This document shows, one piece after another, positions 1 through 5,003 of a DNA stretch of 64,000 bases; position 1 is the first letter of the stretch; each line of letters opens with the position of its first letter. The notes beneath the pieces were generated by a model that had not been told where the DNA came from, did no database searches, and was given only the letters and a program-made list of their open reading frames with translations. A program made the translations under genes and the position numbers. The stretch is from an uncultured Lachnospiraceae bacterium (GTDB lineage Bacteria; Bacillota; Clostridia; Lachnospirales; Lachnospiraceae): contig CATOOV010000010.1 in NCBI GenBank assembly GCA_951801955.1, forward strand, positions 1 through 64,000, read 5' to 3'.

Positions 1-33
1 AAGTTAATGTGTTTGGTCATACATTAATTTTAC

Positions 34-76
34 ACCAACTGCCGGATTTTTTCGAGGTCCGGCAGTTGGTTTTTTT
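34..76 (+). terminator. Intrinsic terminator of a gene upstream of the window
   Basis: A perfect 13-bp stem (34-46 with 58-70) with an 11-nt loop is followed directly by six T residues (71-76). It would end a plus-strand transcript entering from the left, a gene of the same mobile element. Confidence 0.85.
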
Positions 77-256
77 GCATGGAAAAGGAGCTGTGCACTA
101 ATTACTTTTAGTGCGACAGCCCCTTTAATGTTTTTTATGTGAGCATATGGGGGACTGGAATACTGCCCCCACATCCCTGTTACGATAAAATAAAAATAGG
201 ACTTAACAGAATGTTGGGATCTATTTCTGTCCCTAAATTGTTTGTCCCTGTTGTTT
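77..256. other. Non-coding stretch with two further hairpins
   Basis: No credible gene. A 17-bp stem with one mismatch and one bulged G (84-100 with 109-126) is followed by TTTTTT at 131-136 and could be a second plus-strand terminator. A shorter hairpin pairs TGGGGG (148-153) with CCCCCA (166-171). Either could also end the minus-strand Rep transcript, whose stop is at 257, but there is no good T-run in that direction. Confidence 0.5.
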
Positions 257-994
257 TTAGGAGTGTTTTTTTAGGATATATCCCCGGCAATTTCCATACT
301 CTTTAAAATTTTTTTCCATTTTCGCTACAAGAAGTTTTGTTTCAAATGCTTCGTCCAACATTTTTTTATGCAAAGCATAGGTGAGTTTCCATTCCTCATT
401 CATAAAAATATCTTCAATAGCAATCTCACCGCTCAAAATGCCGACCTTTAAGAAGTTGAGAAGTCCCTTTGCGGTCATGGTAATTTTTTCGGCTCTTCCC
501 CTCATCCATGTTTCACGCTGTTCCCTGTAATGCTCCATGTAATCTTTACCGGCGACTGTCCGGACGGAACTGGGGGCATACTGGTACTTCTGGGGGTATT
601 TGATATGTATTAAATAAGACAGCATATTGTCATAGGCGTAACGCCCCGACTTTGGCTTTTCAATATAAGATTCCCCAATGCCGATGGCACTGGCAATTTT
701 GGGGAGTGTCTTTCCTTTTTTGAATTTGACAATAAAATGGGCATGGTGTGACGTGAATGCAATTTCATAAGCGTGTTTATACTCATTCCATAATTTTTTT
801 TCATCCTTATCATGTTCAATAGCGTACATTTCCTGAATCTCACATCCTGCTTTTTCTAACCGTGTTTTGATAATTTTTCCCATTTCATCTATATTTCCAA
901 GCTGTTTCTTTTCGTCATCTGTCCAGTTCCAGTGTTCGGGTAAAAAATCTTGTGTAATTTGTGCAATCCCTAAGTCAGCCAATCTTTTAGCCAT
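257..994 (-). CDS. Rolling-circle plasmid-type replication protein (Rep_2/RepB-like)
   Basis: A 245-residue protein resembling pMV158-type Rep initiators, which nick one strand at an origin and start rolling-circle replication. The HUH-type metal-binding motif is visible as HHAHFIVKF near residue 83, followed by GRYAYDNMLSYLIHIKYPQKY, which in this family lies next to the catalytic tyrosine region. The C-terminal third is lysine-rich and probably binds DNA. The ATG at 994 has a good Shine-Dalgarno (CGAGGTG) 6-8 nt upstream. A minus-strand promoter lies at 1026-1055. In an integrated element such a protein most likely replicates the excised circle. The family is fairly sure; the origin it acts on is not proven. 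Confidence 0.8.
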   Translation of the reverse strand: MAKRLADLGIAQITQDFLPEHWNWTDDEKKQLGNIDEMGKIIKTRLEKAGCEIQEMYAIEHDKDEKKLWNEYKHAYEIAFTSHHAHFIVKFKKGKTLPKIASAIGIGESYIEKPKSGRYAYDNMLSYLIHIKYPQKYQYAPSSVRTVAGKDYMEHYREQRETWMRGRAEKITMTAKGLLNFLKVGILSGEIAIEDIFMNEEWKLTYALHKKMLDEAFETKLLVAKMEKNFKEYGNCRGYILKKHS

Positions 995-1025
995 ATTTTC
1001 ACCTCGTTTCTTATCTTATATAAGC

Positions 1026-1055
1026 ATTGTACCAAATATGGGGGTAAAAATGCAA
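1026..1055 (-). promoter_or_regulatory. Promoter of the rep gene
   Basis: Read on the minus strand: TTGCAT (1055-1050), 18-nt spacer, TACAAT (1031-1026), about 30 nt ahead of the rep start codon. An AATAGTTA box begins inside the -35 hexamer. Confidence 0.6.
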
Positions 1056-1226
1056 TAGTTAAAACAAAAAGTTTTAATTAATCACTAACTATTACATTTT
1101 ATAAGACGCTTTGCGGTGTGCAAAAACGCCGGGAAATGACCGTGCGGTATCGACAAGCCCTACCGCACGGTCATTCTATGTATGTGTGGTATTTGTAATA
1201 GTTAAATTGTACAAATTTTAACTATT
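1054..1226. promoter_or_regulatory. Two inverted pairs of an AATAGTTA box
   Basis: AATAGTTA occurs at 1054-1061 and 1197-1204, each followed by its inverted copy TAACTATT at 1086-1093 and 1219-1226. The first box overlaps the -35 of the rep promoter, as expected for a repressor site; the second pair lies on the other side of the 15-bp hairpin. They could be Rep-binding or copy-control repressor sites. No regulator gene is visible in the window. Confidence 0.5.
1135..1175. other. Perfect 15-bp hairpin, candidate replication origin
   Basis: The arms 1135-1149 and 1161-1175 are perfectly complementary and enclose an 11-nt loop, TCGACAAGCCC. No T-run follows, so it is unlikely to be a terminator. 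Its place upstream of rep, flanked by two pairs of short inverted boxes, fits a double-strand origin or an oriT. I do not recognise the canonical pMV158 nick sequence in the loop. Confidence 0.45.
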
Positions 1227-1233
1227 CATGAAT

Positions 1234-1257
1234 AATATATTGATATATCAATATATT
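1234..1257. repeat. Perfect 24-bp A/T-only-flanked palindrome
   Basis: The 24 bases at 1234-1257 equal their own reverse complement; the centre is TGATATATCA. Such a fully self-complementary site suits binding of a dimeric regulator or an A+T-rich unwinding element near an origin. Confidence 0.6.
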
Positions 1258-1319
1258 TTAGCATTTTTGGAAAGTGAATAATTAAAAAATAGTGTTTTGG
1301 AAAGTAAAAGGTTTGAAAA

Positions 1320-1522
1320 AAATCGTAGACACCCCAAAATCGTATTCAAAACAGACTTTTTCCAATACTGGCGTGGTTTTCAATGAATACGATTTTGAAT
1401 ACGGTACAATTCTAAATCGTAGACAAATGTATTCAAAACAGGCTTTTTCCAATACTGGCGTGGTTTTCAATAAATACGATTTTTGGATACAGTAATCCCC
1501 AGACATCAGAAATCGTATTCAT
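1320..1522. repeat. Direct repeats with inverted ends
   Basis: Two long direct copies lie at 1320-1396 and 1413-1483. Both start with AAATCGTAGACA and share a nearly identical core (CTTTTTCCAATACTGGCGTG, then GTTTTCAAT). In copy one the core is bounded by a 13-bp inverted pair, AAAATCGTATTCA (1336-1348) and TGAATACGATTTT (1384-1396). A third partial end, AAATCGTATTCAT, lies at 1510-1522. There are only two units and no cas genes, so this is not a CRISPR array. It may be a set of binding sites for Rep or the recombinase, or a small folded RNA. Confidence 0.75.
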
Positions 1523-1667
1523 CCCCGAAATTGAGAGGGGAGATTCTGACAGATTCCCATAGTACAGCACTGCTTTTAGGGCTTTATGCATGTTTGGAAT
1601 AGCTAACCAAACTTTTGGTTATTTTTTCAATGTTTTTTGTATCATATTCACAAAAAAGAAAATACGA

Positions 1668-1697
1668 TTGACAGCGAAAAAAGATATGTGGTATAAT
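1668..1697 (+). promoter_or_regulatory. Strong sigma-A promoter of the leader/recombinase unit
   Basis: TTGACA (1668-1673), 18-nt spacer, TATAAT (1692-1697): both consensus hexamers. Transcription should start at about 1704 and run through the leader toward the 132-residue gene and the recombinase. Confidence 0.85.
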
Positions 1698-1703
1698 ATG
1701 GAA

Positions 1704-1940
1704 AAATAAAATATTATTGTGCTTTTCTCACAGTAGTGCCGACGGACAGCATAACCGGTATGCTTAATTTCCAAGTATATTGGTGCTGATAAGGCGGTCG
1801 TGGGGGAAATATATCGCAGGAAGTACCGAGTTCAGAGGAAATTTCTGACAGTGCCAAGTATGTGCAGGCGGTGTAACAAATATAAATTCCAATTAGTGAT
1901 TATGCTGATTGGGGTTCATATATGTTACACCGCTTTTTTT
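1704..1940 (+). ncRNA. Structured leader or small RNA ending in a terminator
   Basis: Between the strong promoter and the next start codon lie about 270 nt. The first 235 are rich in short hairpins, for example GCATA-ACCGG-TATGC (1749-1763), CCAA/TTGG (1771-1783) and TCAGA/TCTGA (1832-1848), and the segment closes with a long intrinsic terminator (1868-1940). The arrangement is that of an attenuated leader, or of an independent small RNA with the next gene expressed by read-through. I do not recognise any known riboswitch class. Limits are inferred from the promoter and the T-run. Confidence 0.55.
1868..1940 (+). terminator. Intrinsic terminator inside the leader of the recombinase unit
   Basis: GCGGTGTAACA (1868-1878) pairs with TGTTACACCGC (1923-1933), followed by seven T residues. 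The 44-nt interior folds further through CCAAT/ATTGG. It lies downstream of the promoter and upstream of the next gene, so transcription of that gene must escape it. Confidence 0.8.
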
Positions 1941-1973
1941 GTTTCCCAATGCACAAAGAAAGGAGAAGTTCTT

Positions 1974-2372
1974 ATGACTGATTTAATTACAGAAATTTAT
2001 ACAAAACGCAAGCGGACTTACCATGATTATGAATGCGAGGATATAGTTATTATGAAAAAAGATTACGGGTGCAGTTGGAAAGACACAATCAAATTATTCC
2101 ATTTAAGAACGTATCAAGGAAGTGTATATCACCCCAAAGGGAATACCTCTTTTGCATGGGACAAAATTTTACGGAATAGTCATATAATAAGATTCATTTG
2201 CCCGGAGATTTTCATGTCCGATACTACTTATCAACAGATTGAACAGAAAATAAATGGTATAAAGGTTGTGCTTGAGTTCCCTACACAACCAGAACAGACG
2301 GATATTTTACATCAAGAAATAAAGTCTATTCTTTCAAGTGTCTTACGGGAACAGTTACAAAAAATCTCATAA
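1974..2372 (+). CDS. Unknown 132-residue protein upstream of the recombinase
   Basis: I do not recognise this protein. It begins MTDLITEIYTKRKRTYHDYE, is basic at the N terminus, has several aromatic residues in the middle and a charged, probably helical C-terminal end, with no membrane segment or signal peptide. The ATG at 1974 has a clear AAAGGAGAAG site just upstream; the open frame continues back to a GTG at 1800, but that part runs through the terminator hairpin and is unlikely to be translated. It ends 52 nt before the recombinase and shares its promoter. By position it could be an excision (directionality) factor or a regulator of the recombinase; this is inference. Confidence 0.7.
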   Translation: MTDLITEIYTKRKRTYHDYECEDIVIMKKDYGCSWKDTIKLFHLRTYQGSVYHPKGNTSFAWDKILRNSHIIRFICPEIFMSDTTYQQIEQKINGIKVVLEFPTQPEQTDILHQEIKSILSSVLREQLQKIS

Positions 2373-2424
2373 CGTCAGCAGAGGGATAACCCTCTGCTGG
2401 TTAGAAAGAAAGGACGATTGACTT

Positions 2425-4125
2425 ATGAAAAAAGTGAGAATGTTATTACGCGTTAGTTCAAATCAGCAGTTAGAGCCGGACGGTGATTTGAGTGTGCAAA
2501 GAGAAATTGTAAAAGACTATGTAAAAAAACACGAAGAATGGCAACTCGATTCAAAGGAATACTTTGAGGGAAGTAACAGCGGATATAAAAATTCAGTCGC
2601 AGACAGAAATGTACTTCAAAACGCCTTACAGGACGCACAGGCAAAAGAATATGATATTTTGGTGGCATACAAAGACGATAGAATTGGCAGACTTATGTGG
2701 GAAATCGGAGCCTATGTAATGGCTCTGAAAAAATGTGGTGTGGATATTTACACCGTGAAAGACGGCTGCATTTCTCCTGAAACAGATGATACAATGGGGC
2801 AAATGATGTTAGCTTTGAGATACGGTAATGCCCAGAAACAAAGCGCTGATACAGGTATGCGTGTAAAAGATACCGCCCAGAAGTTAGTGCAGAAAGGAAA
2901 ATTCATGGGTGGAAAAGCCCCTTATGGCTACAAATTAGAGTTATCAGGAGAAATCAGTAAACACGGACGGGCGTTACATCATCTTGTTATTGTTCCAGAA
3001 CAGGCAGAGGTTGTCAGTTATATTTATGACCTATCTCTCAATAAGGAGTACGGTTCTTCCAAAATTGCCAGCGTTTTGAACAGGCATGAAACCTATAAAA
3101 ACCTTGCCCCCAATGACACATGGAAAGGCGGAACTATCACAAGCATTTTAACGAATCCCATCTATGCCGGACATACAGCTTATAAACGCAGGGAGCGAAT
3201 CAACGGACAATATCACAGGCTTGACAGTGAGAATTGGATTACTTCTATTGACGCAAACGAAAGTATTATGATTATCGACGGTGATACATGGAATAAAACA
3301 CAGGAACGACGTAAACGCCGGGGCGATAAATACATAAAAGCATTAGAGCATAAGGATGTGAATGTGATTAGAAAGAATGATGGTATGTTAGCCTTAATTG
3401 ATGTTTTATATTGCGGATATTGTGGAAGTAAAATGACAAATGGGAGTAAATATAACTATTGGACGATAAAAGGTACAGGAGAAAAAAGAGCAAGCAAAAT
3501 TGCGATATATAAATGCCAAAATGCATGGCAAGGGGTAACCCATGTTAAGACTAAGCAAATCCGAGCCGACATGATTGAACCGATTGTATTTGAATCCATC
3601 GCACAATACATTGGGAAATTACAGGAAAATGAAAGTATTTTTAATGAGATTGAGAACAATCAGAATCAAGAAAAGAAACGGAAACAAGCTGAATTAAAAA
3701 AGGAAAAACAGAATCTTGAAAATATTCAGGACAAGATTCGGATTATGGAAGAAAATATTCCAAATGCTATGACTGGTGACTATCCTTTGTCATTGGAAGA
3801 ACTGGTAGCAATCATCAAAAAGCATAAAGAACAGGCACAGCAACAACAGGATGTTGTTACCCTAAAGGAACTGGAATTGAAAAGCACTTCTGTATCAATC
3901 AACGAATGGGAAGATATTAAAAATAAGATTCCAACATGGCAGGATGTGTTTCTAAATGCAGATGTGGCAACAAAGCGGGTACTGGTAAATAAGCTCGTAG
4001 AGCGTATTGATGTAAAGAAAACAGAAGTCGTTATTCGTTTCAAAATCAACCTTAATGACTTCATTCCACAACCCAGAATATGTGGTGATTCCCATACCAC
4101 TCCGTATATACCCGGTTTAAAGTAA
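2425..4125 (+). CDS. Large serine recombinase (TnpX/TndX-type integrase)
   Basis: A 566-residue site-specific recombinase that should cut and rejoin the attachment sites of the element. The N-terminal resolvase domain shows the catalytic serine in LLRVSSNQQ (Ser11) and the arginine-containing DDRIGR motif near residue 85. A recombinase domain follows (about 150-300), then a zinc ribbon (CGYCGSKM with a later YKC near 355) and a long coiled coil (about 405-450). The ATG at 2425 follows an AAGAAAGGACG site. The last eight or so codons (about 4096-4125) are the antisense of the interrupted SleC-like gene, so the present C terminus PYIPGLK is host-derived. In the circular form the protein would end differently. 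Confidence 0.95.
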   Translation: MKKVRMLLRVSSNQQLEPDGDLSVQREIVKDYVKKHEEWQLDSKEYFEGSNSGYKNSVADRNVLQNALQDAQAKEYDILVAYKDDRIGRLMWEIGAYVMALKKCGVDIYTVKDGCISPETDDTMGQMMLALRYGNAQKQSADTGMRVKDTAQKLVQKGKFMGGKAPYGYKLELSGEISKHGRALHHLVIVPEQAEVVSYIYDLSLNKEYGSSKIASVLNRHETYKNLAPNDTWKGGTITSILTNPIYAGHTAYKRRERINGQYHRLDSENWITSIDANESIMIIDGDTWNKTQERRKRRGDKYIKALEHKDVNVIRKNDGMLALIDVLYCGYCGSKMTNGSKYNYWTIKGTGEKRASKIAIYKCQNAWQGVTHVKTKQIRADMIEPIVFESIAQYIGKLQENESIFNEIENNQNQEKKRKQAELKKEKQNLENIQDKIRIMEENIPNAMTGDYPLSLEELVAIIKKHKEQAQQQQDVVTLKELELKSTSVSINEWEDIKNKIPTWQDVFLNADVATKRVLVNKLVERIDVKKTEVVIRFKINLNDFIPQPRICGDSHTTPYIPGLK

Positions 4126-4780
4126 AGGACATAATGGCAAGGATATTTGCCCGTATGGTACTGTCTGGCCAGGTAGCATAAATCTCACTGGAGGCAACGT
4201 TTTTGATATAATCCTTATATCTCACATAGTAATCCCCTGCTGTGGAATCTCCTGGCGTCCCGTCATGTACCACTACATACTCTGGAATTACAACCCTGCT
4301 CAACACGATTTCCCCGCTCTCATCTACAGGTTTAATCTCTGCCTCTGCAATTTTGGGCGGGAAATTTCCAAACAGCGTATTTGCTGGAATGACAATGTTT
4401 TTTAAATCTTCGCCAAACACCTCAATGGGCTCCATTTGTACATTTTGAAGAGACAGTTCTCCTGAAAACACATCCACTCCCTCCACATTTACCGGACGGT
4501 AACCTTCTGCCTCCACTTCAACCGTATACTCTGCATAAGGCTGGGACTGCTCAGGTTCCATACTGTACTCTAAGGGAGGTGCAGAAAGCGTGACTGTTTC
4601 TGTCTGTCCTTCTGCATTAGTATCAAGCTGTTCTAATGTACTTTGGGGTTCGCCAGTATAAGAGATTCGGATCCTGGCATTTTCAACTGGAATCAATCCC
4701 ACGGTTGAAGTCACTTGGACTCTCAGGGTTCCATTATCCACATGATTCACCTGTGCTGCGCGCAACTTCTGATTTTGCAT
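4061..4780 (-). pseudogene. sleC: SleC-like spore cortex-lytic protein, 3' part cut off by the element
   Basis: The protein starts MQNQKLRAAQVNHVDNGT and follows the N-terminal part of clostridial SleC-like cortex-lytic enzymes: beta-rich repeats, the segment YVRYKDYIKNVASSEIYATW, then IMSFTLNRVYTEWY. In intact homologues this is followed by a catalytic region and peptidoglycan-binding repeats. Here homology stops after TEWY (plus-strand position about 4094), and the frame reads 11 foreign residues of the mobile element to a stop at 4061. The catalytic part is therefore lost from this copy unless the element excises. A small membrane protein gene ends 34 nt upstream. SleC homologues degrade spore cortex during germination. 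Another intact copy elsewhere in the genome is possible. Confidence 0.8.
4085..4100. other. Right attachment-site junction
   Basis: Homology of the host gene begins at about 4094-4096. The junction carries GTGGT (4082-4086) and ACCAC (4096-4100) as an inverted pair around GATTCCCAT. TnpX/TndX-type recombinases usually exchange at a GA dinucleotide, and a GA is present at 4086-4087. The exact crossover cannot be set without the left end or the empty site. Confidence 0.5.
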
Positions 4781-4814
4781 AAATACCTCTTAAGTTTCTA
4801 CACTTATAAATAGT

Positions 4815-5003
4815 TTATGCGAGAGCTTCTGAAAAGGTACTGTGTTCTTCCAATTGACTGATATATTTTTGTTCCATCTGGAGTTTCCTGGCACAAAGGG
4901 CGCCGCTGATACAGATTGCCAACACTGCGATTGCAAGCACAATCATATTTCCGCGTTTTTTTTCACCATTCACACAAGCAAACTTATCTCTATTTTTTCT
5001 CAT
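4815..5003 (-). CDS. Small single-pass membrane protein, DivIC/FtsL-like topology
   Basis: A 62-residue protein starting MRKNRDKFACVNGEKKRG, with one membrane segment (about residues 21-38, MIVLAIAVLAICISGALC) and the start of a charged helix, KLQMEQKYISQLEE. The layout of basic N terminus, one helix and a coiled-coil start resembles DivIC/FtsL septum proteins. Those are longer (about 90-100 residues), so this may be a shortened relative or unrelated. The ATG at 5003 has an AGAGTGG site 6 nt upstream; a GTG at 5012 is an alternative. It lies 34 nt upstream of the SleC-like remnant on the same strand. Confidence 0.5.
   Translation of the reverse strand: MRKNRDKFACVNGEKKRGNMIVLAIAVLAICISGALCARKLQMEQKYISQLEEHSTFSEALA

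Follow-up and report, generated by a model that had tools for sequence, protein, structure and literature searches.

Is a spore germination gene that has been broken by a mobile element simply damaged, or is it put together again in the cell that needs it? The sleC gene of an uncultured Lachnospiraceae bacterium (genome G000) raises this question in a stretch of 64,000 nucleotides, called here the window. An earlier note, made from the letters of the window, had described a minus-strand frame that resembles SleC up to the residues TEWY and then ends inside a serine-recombinase element, and had wavered between a developmental switch reminiscent of skin and an insertion that damages the gene.

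The frame (4061-4780, minus strand) is present in the list of open reading frames of the window, and its product is 78-92% identical to residues 1-227 of SleC proteins from congeners. TEWY are the last residues that it has in common with the intact congener proteins; it diverges straight after, and the exact boundary between host and element lies at 4096/4097, in agreement with the earlier description. Positions 4061-4096 provide the frame with an element-encoded tail, GNHHIFWVVE followed by a stop codon. The intact protein matches the 'Spore cortex-lytic enzyme pre-pro-form' of the PDB (9h68) over residues 12-421 (E 2.5e-128), so the name SleC is sound. The proposal that the interrupted gene loses its catalytic part needs correction: a weak match to the SpoIID domain (20.5 bits, under the Pfam cut-off of 23 bits; residues 186-245 of the 422 in intact SleC) is itself divided by the cut, and what is lost with the C-half is the remainder of this match and PG_binding_1. 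The features of the locus are collected in Table 1.

Table 1. Features of the interrupted sleC locus; positions refer to the window unless another locus is named.
Feature	Position	Strand	Remarks
Intervening element, window part	1-4096		remainder is contig C129:1-3564 (L152); complete in G028, 7,439 bp
Rep_OBD protein, plasmid replication initiator type	257-994	-	Pfam PF01719, E 9.5e-10
Vegetative-type promoter match, TTGACA-N18-TATAAT	1668-1697	+	12 of 12; upstream of small ORF and recombinase
Small ORF, candidate recombination directionality factor	1974-2372	+	directly upstream of recombinase
Large serine recombinase	2425-4125	+	Pfam Resolvase, Recombinase, Zn_ribbon_recom
Probable crossover dinucleotide TA	4095-4096		first 2 bases of a sleC Tyr codon; G-TA common to all genus junction pairs
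sleC N-half	4097-4780	-	host sequence, 228 codons, end ...NRVYTEW
Sigma-K-like motif of sleC, ACC-N16-GCATAAACTA	4811-4838	-	upstream of sleC
Site-2 element of G304	L195:863-3490		only ~2.6 kb; further site-2 stretches: L232, L233, L234, L235, L236, L249, L253

The other end of the element is invisible in the window, because base 1 of the window is base 1 of contig C10, whose end truncates the element at the left. When the whole genome was searched with the part of SleC that is missing here, taken from a congener with an intact gene, a single place was returned (C129:3568-4143, 91% identical, a 208-aa frame with no stops), and once its first codon is counted the C-half starts at 3565 (G000:C129:3565-4143, plus strand, 194 codons). 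Joined, the halves of 228 and 194 codons contain no stop and restore a full-length frame. Joining the host flanks was the check set by the earlier note; its outcome rules out a truncated gene without a partner and, together with the exact boundary, bears out that an element with a serine recombinase has inserted itself in a gene for germination. No second sleC was found in G000 at E<=0.001. The two element parts of G000 align with the copy in G028 over 3,975 nt and 3,441 nt, each with a single mismatch; the last ~120 nt at either contig end of G000 have no counterpart in the G028 copy. Window positions 1-127, the end of C10, are a dispersed short repeat with 12 more places in the same genome, two of them at 99% identity and several at contig ends; probably, an inserted repeat broke the G000 assembly inside the element.

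A search for the same site in related genomes, also suggested by the earlier note, revealed that among the 29 genomes of the genus sleC is split at the same codon in 14 and intact in 14 (frames of 424-463 aa); in the remaining one, G008, the contig stops within the gene, which was left uncalled. Thirteen split genomes have an N-part and a C-part, and in the fourteenth, G019, the contig ends after the N-half and a further 124 nt, which are identical to the G028 element. The N-part ends with NRVYTEW and then TA in 14/14 cases, the C-part begins with the TA of the Tyr codon in all 13 genomes having a C junction, and G-TA is the sole sequence common to every junction pair in the genus. Complete elements (n=9 in the genus) measure 4,047-14,601 bp; the element of G014 contains a stretch read as N. 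The element recombinase is present in 13 of the 14 split genomes (44-100% identity to that of the window), with only its last 71 residues assembled in G009, and G019 contains too little of the element for a recombinase call.

Insertion has occurred in two orientations. The C-half element end of G000 is, by eye, the reverse complement of the N-half end of G024, and vice versa, and in the alignment the matching parts of these elements lie on opposite strands. The recombinase is directed toward the N-half in G000 and G028 and toward the C-half in G024, and both orientations were also seen in other genera. The two orientations suggest that the crossover dinucleotide TA acts as a palindrome. Excision would yield an identical joined gene from either of them.

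The recombinase matches phiC31 integrase (phmmer E 2.9e-9). Strong matches to it, defined by E<=1e-60, were obtained in 12/397 family genomes and 11/392 order genomes, the union comprising 17 genomes of Lachnospiraceae and 2 outside the family. A sleC half (once a paralogue's half) adjoins the recombinase in all 17, within ~0.25 kb in 15 of them, at 1.1 kb in G370 and at 2.4 kb in G730; near the two recombinases from outside the family (28-32% identity) the stretch read contained no sleC half (0/2). In a FastTree tree of 39 recombinases, the 28 that are associated with sleC form one clade (support 0.999). Searches with the window recombinase returned one plasmid record (24.2% identity) and five phage records (23.7-28.2% identity). 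The recombinase of G720 has two in-frame stops, and that of G094 is incomplete because its contig ends. Conversely, a split did not always come with a match: for G215, whose sleC is interrupted at site 1, neither the family search nor the 4 kb read at the locus yielded a recombinase.

The 3' end of the recombinase gene overlaps its target: the final 29 bases, with the stop codon, are sleC sequence (window 4097-4125). At many loci the recombinase stop is the TGA in GGCTATGAT of sleC, past the crossover, and the end of the recombinase protein would differ after excision. In G366 (L242:2368-5523) a member of the recombinase family occupies a paralogue of sleC, at the position equivalent to site 1 (the paralogue's halves are 31% and 45% identical to those of SleC); the main sleC of this genome also has a break at the site-1 codon, close to the end of a contig.

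Apart from the recombinase and the replication protein, the element in its G028 copy encodes Mob_Pre, Big_2 and weak DnaJ-like proteins, as identified with Pfam. A Pfam scan of the main ORFs of the 7.4-kb element revealed no phage structural or packaging genes. The sleC N-halves of G000 and G028, which are different species, are 75.9% identical at the DNA level, and their elements have 2 mismatches in 7,416 nt; the same element occupies the same codon in G695, a member of another genus (97.9% over 7,453 nt), and one IMG/VR contig carries it in two blocks (98.8% and 97.1%). The presence of a near-identical element in another species and another genus indicates that it is mobile, and with an integrase, a relaxase-type gene (Mob_Pre, in the G028 copy) and the same element in other hosts it is most aptly classed as integrative and probably mobilizable. 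A lone, sub-threshold Rfam match to a miRNA (1294-1368) was disregarded. In the G018 element (L158:2645-8398), two ORFs next to the recombinase (676 and 322 aa) look by eye like pieces of a beta-galactosidase.

Related small ORFs were recognized by eye upstream of the recombinase in 21/21 loci. In the alignment of 10 of the 21 small proteins the residues EFP are invariant, and family scans found no credible match and no known relatives. The small protein is the obvious candidate for a directionality factor of the recombinase. A consensus scan of the kilobase upstream of this operon gave four vegetative-type promoter matches vs 4.2 expected, of which the one listed in Table 1 is the only 12 of 12. 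Neither sigma-E-like nor sigma-K-like sites rise above chance upstream of the recombinase in the 21 loci (sigma-K-like: 2, one element counted twice, vs 0.4 expected; sigma-E-like: 1 vs 0.8), and ten aligned upstream regions contain a conserved block and no recognisable promoter. A conserved DNA block ~350-450 nt upstream of the recombinase is found in otherwise diverged elements (L156, L167, L191, L194). The sleC gene itself is preceded by a sigma-K-like motif; the strict pattern occurs upstream of sleC in 8/16 genus loci, split and intact alike, a count in which G018 and G013, with unusable upstream rows, figure as misses. The assigned sleC start codons of G018, G005 and G013 are too far upstream. 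In C. difficile, sleC appears among the listed sigma-K targets (PMC5025042).

Purifying selection on sleC is strong, and equally so in the split and the intact genes. Median pairwise dN/dS values (Nei-Gojobori, taken over pairs with calculable dS and including the time before insertion) are 0.044 for the N-half (39/55 pairs calculable) and 0.024 for the C-half (24/55) in 11 split genomes, vs 0.042 (56/91) and 0.023 (37/91) in the 14 genomes with intact sleC. Where sleC is split by one break only (11 genomes), both halves are open, and the C-halves keep their own stop and the length of 194 codons. The best case is provided by G004 and G027, which have a site-1 element in common (94-98% identical blocks): across their three sleC pieces we counted 36+5+26 = 67 synonymous and 4+0+1 = 5 non-synonymous changes, and the probability of <=5 non-synonymous changes among 72 under neutrality is 7e-38. 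The simplest reading of this selection is that the gene is still in use and hence rejoined. An asporogenous host was rejected, since SpoIVA is present in G000 and altogether in 25/29 genus genomes (12/13 split, 12/14 intact, G019 yes, G008 no).

Taken together, the data are probably best explained by a skin- or gin-like intervening element in sleC that is excised in the mother cell, where both the excision and its timing are what we infer, by analogy with skin, SPbeta, gin and yin. Members of a family of small, horizontally mobile elements insert at one TA in sleC, in either orientation, by means of a large serine recombinase dedicated to this gene. When the cell sporulates, this enzyme, probably with the small upstream protein as its directionality factor, would excise the element in the mother cell and thereby rebuild sleC for late mother-cell expression, while the forespore, the cell that survives, would retain the element and pass it on to the spore. 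We propose that sporulating hosts tolerate the element because a broken sleC would be needed solely in the cell that dies.

We consider it unlikely that the element is an ordinary mobile one that uses sleC simply as a conserved attachment site: sleC would be inactivated in carriers, excision would be rare and independent of sporulation, and the gene would persist because the element is often gained and lost. The recent transfer of the element between species and genera fits such a scenario, as do its mobilization and replication genes, the vegetative-type promoter match at 1668-1697 in upstream scans that found no sporulation promoter, and a site that is empty in about half of the genus. Owing to recent transfer, many of the insertions may not be old enough for selection to be informative, and the intact sleC that G272 possesses alongside the split one counts against excision as the explanation. 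The pattern of joined element ends (attP) that excision would leave had 0 matches in viral_contigs. On the other hand, the site-1 element of G004 and G027 displays descent-like divergence and the sleC pieces around it still have the 67 to 5 excess of synonymous changes, and a damaging insertion fits poorly with half of the species, spore formers, having their sole sleC broken. Of the two possibilities left by the earlier note, recurrence at one codon in many species and unchanged purifying selection favour reversible interruption over damage. The likeness to skin is upheld: rejoining is exact and the recombinase lies beside a gene half. Excision during sporulation is the proposed part of this reading; no sporulation-type promoter stood out in the upstream scans, and the best promoter match upstream of the recombinase operon is vegetative-type.

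There is a second insertion site in sleC. The gene is also cut near codon 297 in at least six genomes among the matches listed (G111, G245, G261, G276, G304, G357), the loci having been chosen by short frames; the frequency of site 1 given above refers to the genus only. In all six a large serine recombinase of a different family adjoins the sleC piece, so a tyrosine recombinase at site 2 was rejected. G695 and one IMG/VR contig contain the element of the window at site 1 and a recombinase of the site-2 type at site 2; the stretches read from these two did not contain the final piece of sleC. Site 2 is also broken in G004 and G027. In G027 the last two sleC pieces are ~61 kb apart on one contig (G027:C1:112950-174466; L160, L207-L210), separated by ordinary genes that are colinear in G004 (L219-L222), namely aspS, gatA, gatB, formate C-acetyltransferase and an lspA-like gene. 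By eye, there are inverted arms at both junctions of this stretch in G004 and G027, and no recombinase was noticed inside it; the site-2-like recombinase lies elsewhere, on different contigs and not next to any piece of sleC. These two genomes are also the best case for selection, and their second break, which encloses 61 kb of ordinary chromosome, is hard to reconcile with simple excision. One might speculate, with little confidence, that in Lachnospiraceae sleC is spliced at the DNA level, through two sites for serine recombinases that act independently (codon 228/229 and about codon 297), and that its pieces, in some hosts severed at both sites, would be rejoined in the mother cell; rebuilding it in G004 and G027, where the arms of site 2 bracket the ~61 kb, would then delete this stretch including aspS, gatA and gatB, a bacterial chromosome diminution in which core genes would be lost only from the doomed mother cell.

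We regard it as very improbable that sleC is dispensable or dead in the split species and the insertion a neutral damage. YabG, which processes pre-pro-SleC in C. difficile (PMC10747680), was matched in 0/29 genus genomes, with the B. subtilis control matched, which would agree with a dispensable or dead sleC and makes YabG unusable as a sporulation marker here; another protease may process pre-pro-SleC in this genus. Against it stand the dN/dS values of 0.024-0.044 in split sleC, like those of intact genes, and the open halves of the 11 single-break genomes. That the halves merely appear separated by an assembly artefact, as the 164-contig draft of G000 with its sleC halves on separate contigs might have implied, is scarcely credible and was rejected, given that in 9 genus genomes, and likewise in G156, G239 and G713, the N-half and the C-part flank a complete element within a single contig.

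If excision from sleC is real, developmental DNA excision extends to the main clostridial cortex-lytic enzyme, and does so in a family of gut bacteria whose spores may carry transmission between hosts, and a plasmid-like class of mobile elements would be specialised on a single spore gene. The preference of mobile elements for genes whose only use is in the terminal mother cell becomes open to test as to its cause, and the many sites that are naturally empty or occupied within a single genus, with two orientations and two sites, offer good material for studying the evolution of such switches and for the search for a new directionality factor.

The sleC locus shares with elements of the skin, gin and yin kind a spore gene split at one point, flanks that restore the frame when joined, and a recombinase of the element's own encoded beside a gene half. 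Skin in sigK of B. subtilis and C. difficile (PMC5025042) interrupts a mother-cell spore gene, as the sleC element probably does, and has in common with it a large serine recombinase beside a gene half and an exact joined frame; unlike skin, the sleC element targets a germination enzyme rather than a sigma factor and has no phage gene among the ORFs scanned, and its excision is something we infer. In C. difficile skin the recombinase is constitutive and a directionality factor restricted to the mother cell sets the timing (PMC5025042). Gin in gerE of B. cereus (PMC5595907) is a non-prophage intervening element with a serine recombinase and a small extra factor (GirC and GirX), which the sleC element probably resembles in these points, but it is 28.6 kb long and has three recombinases, whereas the sleC elements measure 4.0-14.6 kb and that of the window is plasmid-like in look. 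Yin in yabG of C. botulinum (PMC10747680) also interrupts a spore gene with its recombinase beside a gene half, and its circle is excised; it is reported as unique to one strain and prophage-like, whereas sleC elements recur in many genera. SPbeta in spsM of B. subtilis (PMC4191935) is a mobile element whose excision at sporulation time rebuilds a spore gene, to which the sleC element may be likened; SPbeta, however, is an active phage, and the element of the window has replication and mobilization genes instead. Among the matches listed in a full-text literature search, with most subscription journals and all preprints outside its scope, we found no report of an interrupted sleC. Spore genes interrupted in this way are already known; sleC as the target, a dedicated recombinase clade, a plasmid-like element and two sites are, as far as this search shows, new.
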